Shown here piece by piece: positions 3,193-23,095 of a stretch of 64,000 nt of DNA. Both the position numbers and the translations under genes were made by a program. The stretch lies in assembly GCA_021299715.1 (NCBI GenBank), contig JAJTEL010000006.1:62001-126000 (forward strand), read 5' to 3'. The notes below the pieces were generated by a model. That model was given only the letters and a program-made list of their open reading frames with translations. It had not been told where the DNA came from and ran no database searches. The DNA is from Ilumatobacteraceae bacterium. Its GTDB lineage: Bacteria; Actinomycetota; Acidimicrobiia; Acidimicrobiales; Ilumatobacteraceae. Within the stretch, counting starts at the first letter, position 1; every line of letters starts with the position of its first letter.

Positions 3193-3280
3193 GCGGTCAC
3201 CCTATCCGCGGAGCTGAAACCCTTGAAAACATTGAGTTTCATTAATTGGGTTGATTCTGGCATCGCAGAGTGGTTTCATA

Positions 3281-3454
3281 GTGCCCGATATGCGTAACGA
3301 GTTCACCACCGCATTTATGGCAACCACGGCAGCGGCCGTGGCGTTTGCCTATGCAACAACGGTGGCTACTCGTGCGTTCTCAATGTGGTCTACACCGGCA
3401 GTGAAGCATTCCAATAAGCGTTTCACCCGGTGGCCCAGTGGGGTTCTGAACTAG
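3281..3454 (+). CDS. Putative leader peptide (uORF) of the whiB7 attenuator
   Basis: A short ORF can start at GTG 3281 or in-frame ATG 3290 (57 or 54 residues) and ends at TAG 3452-3454, 24 bases before a strong terminator hairpin. The product is Ala/Thr-rich with no recognisable domain. Its last codons (about 3425-3435) lie on the RNA arm that can pair with the 5' arm of the terminator, the geometry expected of a translated attenuator leader. No strong Shine-Dalgarno is visible. A TTGAAA at 3223-3228 could be a -35 element. Whether it is translated, and from which start, is inference. Confidence 0.5.
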   Translation: MPDMRNEFTTAFMATTAAAVAFAYATTVATRAFSMWSTPAVKHSNKRFTRWPSGVLN

Positions 3455-3515
3455 TTCGTTCAGAAAATATCTCGCCAGAGGCCGCCGGGTTCACAACCCG
3501 AGCGGCCTTTTTGTT
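3425..3515 (+). promoter_or_regulatory. Terminator/antiterminator switch upstream of whiB7
   Basis: Two mutually exclusive RNA pairings are visible. The antiterminator pairs 3425-3435 (ACCCGGTGGCC) with 3480-3490 (GGCCGCCGGGT): 11 contiguous pairs including one G-U. The same 3480-3490 segment is the 5' arm of the intrinsic terminator. The upstream arm lies at the end of the leader ORF, so a ribosome finishing that ORF would mask it and favour termination, whereas stalling earlier would free it. This matches the known whiB7/wblC attenuation logic. In vivo use is inferred. Confidence 0.65.
3479..3515 (+). terminator. Intrinsic terminator in the whiB7 leader
   Basis: Stem 3479-3491 pairs with 3495-3508: 13 base pairs with a single bulged A at 3501 and loop CAC. 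It is followed directly by a T-rich run (TTTTGTTTT). It lies before the whiB7 start codon, so it would act as an attenuator rather than as the end of a gene. Confidence 0.8.
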
Positions 3516-3552
3516 TTACCCAACACCATCCAACCCAGAAGGAAACACCGAT

Positions 3553-3903
3553 ATGTACACCAAGATTGACATCGCAGCAGGCGGAGCAAACGTTCAGGAA
3601 ATGGACCTCCCCCTGTCTTCACGCCGTTGCTCAGACGGAAACGGCACTCTCAGCTACCTGTTCTTCTCTGACGAATGGGTCGATATTCAGCGCGCCAAGG
3701 CCATCTGTGGCAAGTGTTCAGATGCCCGTGACTGCCTACAAGGGGCTCTGGACCGAGAGGAGCCCTGGGGCGTCTGGGGTGGAGAAGAGCTGGAGATGGG
3801 GCGCGTGGTGTCCGTGCGCCGCCCCCGTGGCCGTCCACCCGTGAAGTCAGCGTCCGTCACAGCCATCGAAGAGGTACCCATCCCGCGTCACCTCGTAGCC
3901 TGA
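3553..3903 (+). CDS. whiB7: WhiB7/WblC-type iron-sulfur transcription regulator
   Basis: The 116-residue protein has four cysteines at 26, 52, 55 and 61 (C-x25-C-x2-C-x5-C) that would hold a [4Fe-4S] cluster, then the WhiB turn GVWGGE at 73-78. The AT-hook RPRGRPP at 90-96 distinguishes WhiB7/WblC from other WhiB proteins. WhiB7 binds SigA and activates ribosome-protective and drug-export genes after translation stress. The ATG at 3553 is preceded by AGAAGGAAAC, a good Shine-Dalgarno; in-frame upstream codons run through the terminator and are rejected. The C-terminal tail is longer than in M. tuberculosis WhiB7. Its leader has an ORF plus an attenuator. Confidence 0.85.
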   Translation: MYTKIDIAAGGANVQEMDLPLSSRRCSDGNGTLSYLFFSDEWVDIQRAKAICGKCSDARDCLQGALDREEPWGVWGGEELEMGRVVSVRRPRGRPPVKSASVTAIEEVPIPRHLVA

Positions 3904-3907
3904 GCAC

Positions 3908-4489
3908 ATGGGACGGAACCGAAAAAAGGTCGTTGTTGCGGTTCTGTCCATTGTGCTACTTGTCAGCGTTGTCGGGGGGTGGGCCCTCAGCCGATCCTCC
4001 GACGACGTTGACGCCAAACTCACCACTCCTGGGGTCGAACAGACCCCAGGAATTGGTACAAATGCCAACAACACGGGCAAGAAGTTCTCATTTGTCCCTG
4101 TCACCGACTTGTTGTCTGGTGCGGCCGTCACCATTACTCCAATGGGAAAGCCCATGGTGGTGAATTTCTGGTTCTCTACATGTGAGCCATGTAAACGCGA
4201 AATGCCAGCCCTCACCGCTGCTGCTGCAAAGTACGGATCACGCGTCAACTTCATAGGCATTAATCCGAATGACACCGAAGAATCGGCATCTGCATTCATA
4301 GAAAAATACGGAATCAAGTTCACGAATTACTTGGATGATGGAGACCAACTGTCAGAAGCTGGTGTCACCACAATGCCCACCACTTTCTTCATCGCTGCCA
4401 ACGGCTACATCGTGAAGACACATGCTGGCGAACTCACAGCGCAAGATATTGAGAGTTCAATTCAGAATGACCTTGGAGTAACACAGTGA
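3908..4489 (+). CDS. Membrane-anchored TlpA/ResA-like thioredoxin
   Basis: The 193-residue product has a basic start and one membrane anchor (about residues 8-26). A TlpA-like thioredoxin domain follows, with NFWFSTCEPCKREMP carrying the CxxC at C92/C95 and the cis-Pro region TTMPTTFF. It should sit outside the membrane and reduce disulfides, for example in apocytochrome c. Its stop overlaps the ccdA-like start (GTGA), which would supply electrons across the membrane. The nearby caa3 oxidase with a c-type haem fits a role in cytochrome c maturation. Confidence 0.88.
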   Translation: MGRNRKKVVVAVLSIVLLVSVVGGWALSRSSDDVDAKLTTPGVEQTPGIGTNANNTGKKFSFVPVTDLLSGAAVTITPMGKPMVVNFWFSTCEPCKREMPALTAAAAKYGSRVNFIGINPNDTEESASAFIEKYGIKFTNYLDDGDQLSEAGVTTMPTTFFIAANGYIVKTHAGELTAQDIESSIQNDLGVTQ

Positions 4490-5328
4490 TTGCACTTGAA
4501 GGCGACTTCGCGTACAACTTCATTCTTGGCGTCATGTCGGCAGTGAACCCGTGCGGATTTGTTCTGTTGCCTACCTATCTCATGTATTACCTGGGAATGG
4601 AACTTCAACCATCTGCCACACGAGCGACCACTTTGCGTCGTGGCCTTATGGTGGGGTCAGCAGTTTCATCAGGTTTTGTTGGCTTGTTTCTCATTGTTGG
4701 AATTATCACTCAGTCATTCACCACAGCAGTACGAGATAACTCCAAATACTTAGCGTTTGTGGTTGGACTTGGTCTTGTTGCGATGGGACTTCTTATGTTG
4801 ACCGGCAGAAAGCCACGCATCGCCCAACCACAGGTGTCTCTTCAGCGTGAACGCACAGTGCGCAATATGTTCCTCTTTGGTATTGCTTACGCCGTGGCGT
4901 CGATTGGCTGCACCATTGGTTTTGTTACGTCTGCAGTGTTCGGTTCTGTTGGTCGCCACGGTTTTGTCTCTGGCGTTTTCAGCATTGTTCTCTACGGCCT
5001 GGGAATGGCGTCTCTTGTCATCGCCCTTACTGTGGCGCTTGCTTTTGCTCAAGTGGGAATAGTGCAAGTTCTCAAGAAGAGTCTTCGATTTTTCGATCGC
5101 ATCTCAGCACTCTTTGTGTTGTTAACGGGCCTCTACCTGACGTGGTACTGGTACGGCGCCATTACCGACCGCGGTAGCGATGGCGTTATTCGACGTGTCG
5201 ATTCTCTGCAGTCGTCAGTTGTGAATTTCCTCAACGACCTTGGTGCCGTCACTCTTGGCCTTGTCTTTGCGGCAGTCATACTTTTGGCGCTGTGGTTCAT
5301 CCGTCGACCCACCCAACAGCGGTCATAA
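4486..5328 (+). CDS. CcdA-like transmembrane thiol-disulfide transporter
   Basis: This 280-residue polytopic protein belongs to the DsbD/CcdA family. It carries the NPCGF motif at 21-25 (C23) and the second conserved Cys in SIGCTIGF (C142). At least six hydrophobic helices are visible. CcdA moves reducing power from cytoplasmic thioredoxin to extracytoplasmic partners such as TlpA/ResA. The GTG start overlaps the stop of the TlpA-like gene, so the pair is translationally coupled. A C-terminal extra helix and basic tail lie beyond the core domain. Confidence 0.9.
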   Translation: MIALEGDFAYNFILGVMSAVNPCGFVLLPTYLMYYLGMELQPSATRATTLRRGLMVGSAVSSGFVGLFLIVGIITQSFTTAVRDNSKYLAFVVGLGLVAMGLLMLTGRKPRIAQPQVSLQRERTVRNMFLFGIAYAVASIGCTIGFVTSAVFGSVGRHGFVSGVFSIVLYGLGMASLVIALTVALAFAQVGIVQVLKKSLRFFDRISALFVLLTGLYLTWYWYGAITDRGSDGVIRRVDSLQSSVVNFLNDLGAVTLGLVFAAVILLALWFIRRPTQQRS

Positions 5329-22772: not shown

Positions 22773-22845
22773 GCCCCCATCGTCTAGAGGCCTAGGACAC
22801 CACCCTTTCAAGGTGGCGGCACGGGTTCGAATCCCGTTGGGGGTG
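22773..22845 (+). tRNA. tRNA-Glu (TTC)
   Basis: The cloverleaf folds well: acceptor GCCCCCA with TGGGGGT, anticodon stem CCACC/GGTGG, loop CTTTCAA with anticodon TTC, and T arm CGGGTTCGAATCCCG. The 3' CCA is not fully encoded (GCA follows). It is first of three tRNAs in a row. Confidence 0.96.
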
Positions 22846-22885
22846 CAAAGAGACCAAGAGGTTTTCTCGCAAGAGGTTCTCTCTA

Positions 22886-22962
22886 GGTCCCGTGGTGAAG
22901 TTGGAGTTCACGCCGGCCTGTCAAGCCGGAGGTCGCGGGTTCGAGTCCCGTCGGGACCGCCA
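22886..22962 (+). tRNA. tRNA-Asp (GTC)
   Basis: The acceptor GGTCCCG pairs with CGGGACC, the anticodon stem CCGGC/GCCGG encloses CTGTCAA (anticodon GTC), and the T arm is GCGGGTTCGAGTCCCGT. The CCA end is encoded at 22960-22962. Confidence 0.97.
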
Positions 22963-23019
22963 TCAATGGCGGAAGCGTCATTGAAAACCTGTTCAAGCAA
23001 CGCATGTTGATTGCAACAC

Positions 23020-23095
23020 GGTCGAGTAGCTCAGTTGGCAGAGCACACGCCTGAAAAGCGTGGGGTCACCGGATCGACGCCGGTCTCGACCACCA
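23020..23095 (+). tRNA. tRNA-Phe (GAA)
   Basis: The acceptor GGTCGAG pairs with CTCGACC, the D arm is TAGCTCAGTTGGCAGAG, the anticodon loop is CTGAAAA (GAA), and CCA is encoded at 23093-23095. The T loop reads ATCGACG, so position 54 is A rather than T. Confidence 0.95.

Follow-up and report, generated by a model that had tools for sequence, protein, structure and literature searches.

Attenuators of the trp/his type place a leader peptide rich in certain codons before a choice between terminator and antiterminator. WhiB7/WblC proteins bind region 4 of sigma A and activate resistance genes, and the whiB7/wblC genes reportedly lie behind a uORF attenuator, an account credited to Burian and Thompson (2018) and to Lee, Lee and Roe (2022). 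As described in the available portions of three papers, the DNA upstream of whiB7 holds a leader ORF (uORF), a Rho-independent terminator, and an antiterminator made of uORF and terminator sequence (PMC10727445, PMC9618640, PMC11550727); one of them, in the part available, calls the uORF-terminator arrangement typical of actinobacterial whiB7 (PMC10727445). Excerpts of other papers place wblC under uORF-mediated attenuation (PMC7157823), describe stalling inside the whiB7 uORF as not yet tested (PMC12121999), and give the whiB7 uORF of M. marinum and of M. bovis a Shine-Dalgarno sequence about 10 nt on its 5′ side (PMC4128351). In the model proposed for the ilvB1 uORF attenuator of M. tuberculosis, again from an excerpt, a ribosome at the stop codon gives the terminator and an upstream stall gives antitermination (PMC13236596).

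How does the present locus compare? It lies in the window, by which we mean the whole 64,000-nt stretch of DNA analysed, and we put at roughly 0.85 the probability that a translation-sensing transcription attenuator controls its whiB7. Like attenuators of the trp/his type, the locus has a codon-biased leader and a terminator/antiterminator choice; unlike them, it yielded no conserved protector hairpin, and the output is a stress regulator rather than a biosynthetic operon. With the whiB7/wblC attenuators, as far as the excerpts describe them, it shares the uORF, the terminator and the overlapping antiterminator upstream of whiB7, and it differs from them in its place in Acidimicrobiia, in the tlpA and ccdA genes that follow whiB7, and in a stop-codon hairpin that is here made explicit. 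Its uORF is predicted to be leaderless, in contrast to the excerpted description of the M. marinum and M. bovis uORF (PMC4128351). The ilvB1 model would apply likewise, with another regulated gene, another codon content, and branched-chain amino acids on the ilvB1 side (PMC13236596, in part).

The preliminary description of this DNA held that known whiB7/wblC attenuation works in this way, and the published accounts, in their available portions, do describe the same mechanism (PMC10727445, PMC9618640, PMC11550727). It also held that finding the switch in Acidimicrobiia would make it ancient. Comparative data support the age; the arrangement is already called typical of actinobacterial whiB7 in the available part of one paper (PMC10727445), so the find is less new than was held. 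In the passages covered by our literature search, neither an Acidimicrobiia switch of this kind nor the stop hairpin is described, which does not prove that no description exists.

The locus, its host and its genes

The genome behind the window amounts to 1.9 Mb in 16 contigs, and the GC content of the window is 52.6%. Its closest WhiB7 protein, 98% identical, belongs to a MAG named uncultured Acidimicrobiaceae, whose isolate tag, ErkenSummer, we have taken for a lake origin; Ilumatobacteraceae is the label on several of the next-closest named relatives. The suggested placement in Acidimicrobiia is thus borne out. Five MAG records in our sample (L016, L023, L050, L051, L056) are titled Bifidobacterium breve while their whiB7 matches Ilumatobacteraceae, and are probably mislabelled; L050 is also a row of the WhiB7 tree. 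An Rfam scan of the window at gathering thresholds gave three tRNAs and no match to a leader family. Three tRNA genes cluster at 22773-23092. The features of the locus are collected in Table 1.

Table 1. Features of the whiB7 locus, in window coordinates
Feature	Position	Strand	Basis
AT-rich element, then -35-like TTGATT (3251-3256)	3237..3256	+	predicted promoter
Leader ORF (uORF), 54 codons, 11 Ala and 9 Thr, predicted leaderless	3290..3454	+	ATG position shared with relatives; dN/dS
Antiterminator arm 1, in uORF codons 46-49	3425..3436	+	duplex p values; swap test
Stop-codon hairpin TTCTGAAC / GTTCAGAA, uORF stop TAG in loop	3444..3465	+	swap test; nested in antiterminator
Shared arm 2: antiterminator 3′ half = terminator 5′ half	3478..3491	+	fold and co-variation
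Terminator 3′ half (3495-3509) and U-rich tract	3495..3518	+	hairpin scan of 94 loci
whiB7 Shine-Dalgarno AGAAGGA	3537..3543	+	sequence
whiB7, 116 aa: four Cys, GVWGGE turn, RPRGRP AT-hook	3553..3903	+	Pfam, motifs, PDB relatives
tlpA/resA-like thiol-disulfide oxidoreductase	3908..4489	+	Pfam Redoxin E 2.4e-16; gene order
ccdA-like membrane protein, overlaps tlpA	4486..5328	+	presumed from motif NPCGFVLLPTYL and position; gene order

The identity of the regulator, claimed from its Cys set, GVWGGE and AT-hook, is upheld by Pfam, motifs and structural relatives. The 3553-3903 product contains a Whib domain (PF02467, E 5.5e-11, above the Pfam cut-off) with the four-Cys motif, the GVWGGE turn, and a C-terminal AT-hook of the RGRP kind, and its best PDB matches are chains named WhiB7 (7kif, E 1.7e-16), which we take to be from M. 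tuberculosis, the next molecule following at 7.8e-5. A search of NCBIfam gave no match for this protein. In the tree it is split with a support of 99 from the three Wbl rows (two identical) of its own genome. Among viral contigs, six loci have WhiB7 similarity, at 34-48% identity over 31-53 residues.

A feature absent from the preliminary description is the pair of genes downstream. The tlpA-like gene begins 4 nt past the whiB7 stop, and the ccdA-like gene, which had no match in Pfam or NCBIfam searches and whose label we presume from the motif NPCGFVLLPTYL and its position, overlaps tlpA. The order whiB7-tlpA-ccdA on one strand is found at 59/70 loci from the best 80 of 291, a count that omits the 10/80 with less than 1200 nt downstream. 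The 4-nt gap suggests one whiB7-tlpA operon; tlpA is probably co-transcribed with whiB7, and ccdA probably with tlpA. From the kept gene order, the gap and the overlap, a thiol-redox pair may come under the attenuator as well. A search of the genome for the WhiB7 promoter motif, with at most one mismatch, gave 13 sites versus 9 for the control, with no clear enrichment.

Alternative folds of the leader and their conservation

The uORF runs for 54 codons from the ATG at 3290 to the TAG at 3452-3454, and between it and whiB7 lies a predicted Rho-independent terminator, whose arms (3478-3491 and 3495-3509) form 14 pairs with one bulged A around a CAC loop, followed by TTTGTTTT. The terminator and U-rich tract described earlier therefore stand, with the pair number corrected from 13. 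The candidate antiterminator, also foreseen, overlaps both uORF and terminator and excludes the latter: arm 1, ACCCGGTGGCC (3425-3435, in the last uORF codons as claimed, 46-49 of 54), pairs with arm 2, GGCCGCCGGGT (3480-3490), through 10 Watson-Crick pairs and one G-U. For this 11-bp duplex, dinucleotide shuffling gives p = 0.003, the lowest value that 300 shuffles allow, and resampling of synonymous codons gives p = 0.037. The whole leader (3281-3553) has a folding energy of -105.9 kcal/mol (z = -4.86, 0/200 shuffles as good), and the fold of 3440-3520 has z = -5.73.

Does covering the leader change the fold, as the preliminary description supposed? Masking arm 1 gives the terminator (-37.1 kcal/mol); if arm 1 is left free while the terminator 3′ arm is still to come, the fold is instead the antiterminator (-39.6), one long stem of arm 1, extended stop hairpin and arm 2. 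On 3424-3513 the two states are within 2.5 kcal/mol, and the overall minimum (-42.9) holds the terminator; with the first 30 codons masked (3380-3513) the minimum of -60.6 holds the terminator and a protector hairpin. By equilibrium energies alone, then, termination would persist during an early stall within those 30 codons, and since the equilibrium minima keep the terminator, antitermination must win kinetically.

Relatives were sampled as the best 80 of 291 confirmed loci, with 12/80 removed for want of the core motif, 2 as too short and 5 as duplicates. The alignment set held 55 distinct leaders, the window and 54 others, and the shuffle-test set 25 of these, less than 80% identical. A further 69 loci, cut from genomes of the same family, order, class or phylum, brought the total to 94; two families among these genomes presumably resemble Streptomyces and Mycobacterium by their WhiB7 sequence. 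Seven without a terminator, three weaker than -18 kcal/mol and L218, a copy of the window, were dropped to leave 83 leaders, thinned at 75% identity to 71 for the swap tests.

The terminator is widespread. It was found below -15 kcal/mol in 70/80 loci of the first scan (the best 80 of 291); in the enlarged set 87/94 loci have a terminator-like hairpin below -13, and 84/94, with the duplicate of the window's leader counted, have one below -18 together with a uORF stop. By kinship, over the 68 cut loci that remain when the window copy is excluded, terminators below -18 occur in 9/14 loci of the same family, 24/24 of the same order, 2/2 of the same class and 23/28 of the same phylum; no such terminator was found in 5/28 loci outside the class. 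Terminator scans outside the class found none in Brachybacterium (L080, L082, L083), nor in L195, L196 and L200. RNAalifold on a plain MAFFT alignment of the 55 leaders recovered the terminator, with 9 pairs, 2 of them with double changes, and did not recover the antiterminator or the stop hairpin.

The antiterminator pairing beats dinucleotide shuffles at p<=0.05 in 17/25 leaders (Fisher 5e-17) and resampled synonymous codons, drawn from the uORFs, in 13/25 (Fisher 1e-13; the frame of L010 was wrong in this test), so that the complementarity of the arms exceeds what the peptide requires. Pairing is poor in L077 and L027, and leaders taken singly are significant in 44/83. In the swap test, which needs no alignment, each arm-1 region was paired with arm 2 of every one of the 71 leaders. 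Own pairs had a mean of -20.0 kcal/mol versus -17.4 for swapped ones (z -10.2), with marginal effects retained by the test and kinship between leaders ignored; z was -8.3 within the class (n=57) and -3.1 outside it (n=14, p 0.0007), and -1.1 to -1.5 for three decoy regions. In 68/71 leaders the segment that still lacks the terminator 3′ arm has the antiterminator as its minimum-energy fold, partly by construction, as arm 1 was picked as the best partner and the segment begins there. Two leaders illustrate the co-variation: in L050 arm 2 GCTGGG faces CCCAGC in both arm 1 and the terminator, and in L151 arm 2 GAGACC is matched by TCTC on the arm-1 side and by GGTCTT on the terminator side.

The co-variation of the stop hairpin, a second feature that the preliminary description lacks, is stronger still, with z -14.9 over the 71 leaders, -13.2 in the class and -4.3 outside it, against decoys at -0.1 and -2.1 (the latter p 0.02). 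Its stem reads GACGT..ACGTC in many lineages, GATGT..ACATC in L027, L029 and L072, and GATCT..AGATC in L010. At least 5 pairs enclose the uORF stop in 77/83 leaders versus 66.5 expected from shuffles, which is weak as a sole count. The preliminary description had looked to relatives in Acidimicrobiia for covariation of both its pairings, and would have counted a loss of the arms there against itself; both pairings are conserved and co-vary. This suggests that the switch is under selection in Acidimicrobiia, and that the stop hairpin is a conserved, testable part of it.

The uORF, its start and the rival readings

The short leader ORF is confirmed in the sequence. In eight of nine close relatives (all except L021) the ATG is equally placed over the last 162 nt compared. 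Across ten close relatives including the window, compared ungapped over the last 54 codons, the median dN/dS is 0.39 (NG86, codons 1-41; 45 non-independent pairs), and by this measure coding selection acts on the uORF. Upstream of arm 1 the third codon position varies at 30/41 sites, versus 4/13 from arm 1 to the stop (p 0.009), a constraint that RNA structure overlying the codons would predict. Many uORFs of the class share with the window (3416-3421) the Lys-Arg codons AAG CGN a few codons 5′ of arm 1, which may reflect a constraint on the peptide or on the RNA.

A TTGA or TTGC with an AT-rich flank lies 37-39 nt 5′ of the in-frame uORF ATG in 33/55 leaders; by the same rule 22/55 have none. 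In the window TTGATT with its AT-rich stretch is a probable promoter, whose AT-rich part, from 3237 onward, may be a WhiB7 site for autoregulation. The spacing of the -35-like element would put a typical start site on the ATG or a few nt from it, and no Shine-Dalgarno sequence was seen before the window's uORF; it is therefore predicted that the uORF is probably leaderless, a point absent from the preliminary description.

Coding selection on the uORF, two exclusive pairings, the stop hairpin, co-variation, and an inheritance-like pattern in the tree are the computed features of the locus. The behaviour in vivo that we infer, comprising termination and read-through, ribosome stalling, its signal, and autoregulation by WhiB7, would be as follows. 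When the uORF is freely translated, the ribosome would arrive at the stop codon, keep the stop hairpin open and reach the edge of arm 1; arm 2 would be left to pair with the 3′ half of the terminator, so that transcription would stop near 3515. A ribosome stalled or slowed earlier in the uORF, by an antibiotic or by shortage of a charged tRNA, perhaps alanyl-tRNA, would let the stop hairpin form and so draw arms 1 and 2 (3425-3436 and 3478-3491) together. The antiterminator would form before the terminator 3′ arm exists, giving read-through into whiB7 and probably tlpA-ccdA, and the WhiB7 protein made would in turn stimulate its own promoter. The distance from the end of arm 1 to the stop is 10-16 nt in 43/71 leaders, most commonly 14 (17/71). 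The available part of a published account estimates that a ribosome positioned on the stop codon of a uORF covers about 26 nt centred on that codon (PMC13236596); such a footprint would take in the core of the stop hairpin and hardly arm 1, and the terminating ribosome would thus hold open the hairpin more than the arm.

Might the switch be a three-state attenuator like that of trp, in which arm 1 is sequestered by a protector hairpin (3392-3432) except when a ribosome stalls on that hairpin, so that the gene would also be off without translation? The minimum-energy fold of the window leader contains this hairpin, which persists, terminator and all, with the first 30 codons masked. Arm 1 and the 60 nt upstream of it do not co-vary, however (z +0.7 in the swap test of all 71 leaders and +0.3 for the class), and the long protector helix is absent by eye in relatives such as L007. 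We consider this reading improbable, and reject the hairpin as a conserved part; in its own genome it may matter. It is far less likely again that the uORF is an ordinary small-protein gene with its own terminator, placed upstream of whiB7 by chance and with accidental complementarity of the arms. Coding selection and a uORF that ends just 5′ of the terminator would fit such a gene, but it leaves unexplained the co-variation of antiterminator and stop hairpin, which the decoys lack or hardly have, the spacing of arm 1 from the stop, and the third positions constrained from arm 1 onward.

What does the attenuator sense? By homology, antibiotics may switch on whiB7 here, as the preliminary description supposed, and amino-acid shortage is a plausible further signal. 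That the uORF is chiefly a sensor of alanine (or Thr) starvation, with antibiotics a side input, is possible, though we hold it to be the less probable case. Before arm 1, Ala makes up 163/840 uORF residues (19.4%) versus 9.8% in aligned neighbouring proteins, over 24 leaders (L050, too short, was left out of the 25, and the frame of L010 was set by hand here and for dN/dS), and it is above background in 19/24; the window's uORF has 11/54, and fractions outside Acidimicrobiia reach 0.50. Automatic frame picking had gone wrong for L010 and for L018, which is not one of these rows. A cruder background from the three longest open frames per locus, which seems to hold spurious frames given its 10.4% Arg, is 10.3% Ala and leaves the outcome unchanged. 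WhiB7 is also required under alanine starvation in mycobacteria, according to the available part of one paper (PMC10727445, citing Poulton et al.). Against this, Ala falls below background in 5/24 leaders, the enrichment ratios of Lys, Thr and Met (3.0, 2.1, 2.1) exceed the 2.0 of Ala, and GC-rich genomes are expected to give Ala-rich frames anyway. Leu, Ile, Glu and Asp are depleted. The uORF is Ala/Thr/Lys-rich.

Descent and meaning of the switch

The WhiB7 tree, made by a quick method from 100 rows (28 of the best 80 of 291 loci, 68 cut loci, the window and three Wbl) and 91 columns, leaves open 45/95 inner branches. One clade holds 64/65 Acidimicrobiia WhiB7 (SH-aLRT 97), the exception, L189, being a long branch. 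The rows of the class for which the scans gave no convincing terminator coincide exactly with a single paralogue clade (97) of 11 members, namely L045, L046, L049, L057, L064, L070, L175, L179, L181, L182 and L183, the last with a hairpin of -16.8 kcal/mol and no U-tract; the terminator of L065 was missed at the first scan and detected at the second. From this pattern, the switch looks inherited with WhiB7 in Acidimicrobiia and absent from one duplicate. In two genomes, by coordinates, one of these paralogues adjoins the switch-bearing whiB7 on its upstream side. No comparable terminator was found at two other Wbl genes of the window's own genome, the control having read two because L001 and L003 are the same gene and the target genes of L003 and L004 missed the script's motif.

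These strands can be joined in a single speculative reading, to which we give a fairly low probability. One inherited RNA device would predate the split of Acidimicrobiia from the other sampled classes, and its true sensor would be the stop-codon hairpin, held open by the terminating ribosome; failure to reach the stop, natively through alanine shortage, would close the hairpin and nucleate antitermination, which in Ilumatobacteraceae would drive a WhiB7-TlpA-CcdA thiol-redox operon. If this were true, the device would originally have served amino-acid and redox balance, not drug resistance. The analysis extends the whiB7 attenuator of Mycobacterium and Streptomyces to small-genome Acidimicrobiia and offers the stop-codon hairpin as a conserved, testable detail of a switch whose old role need not be drug resistance.
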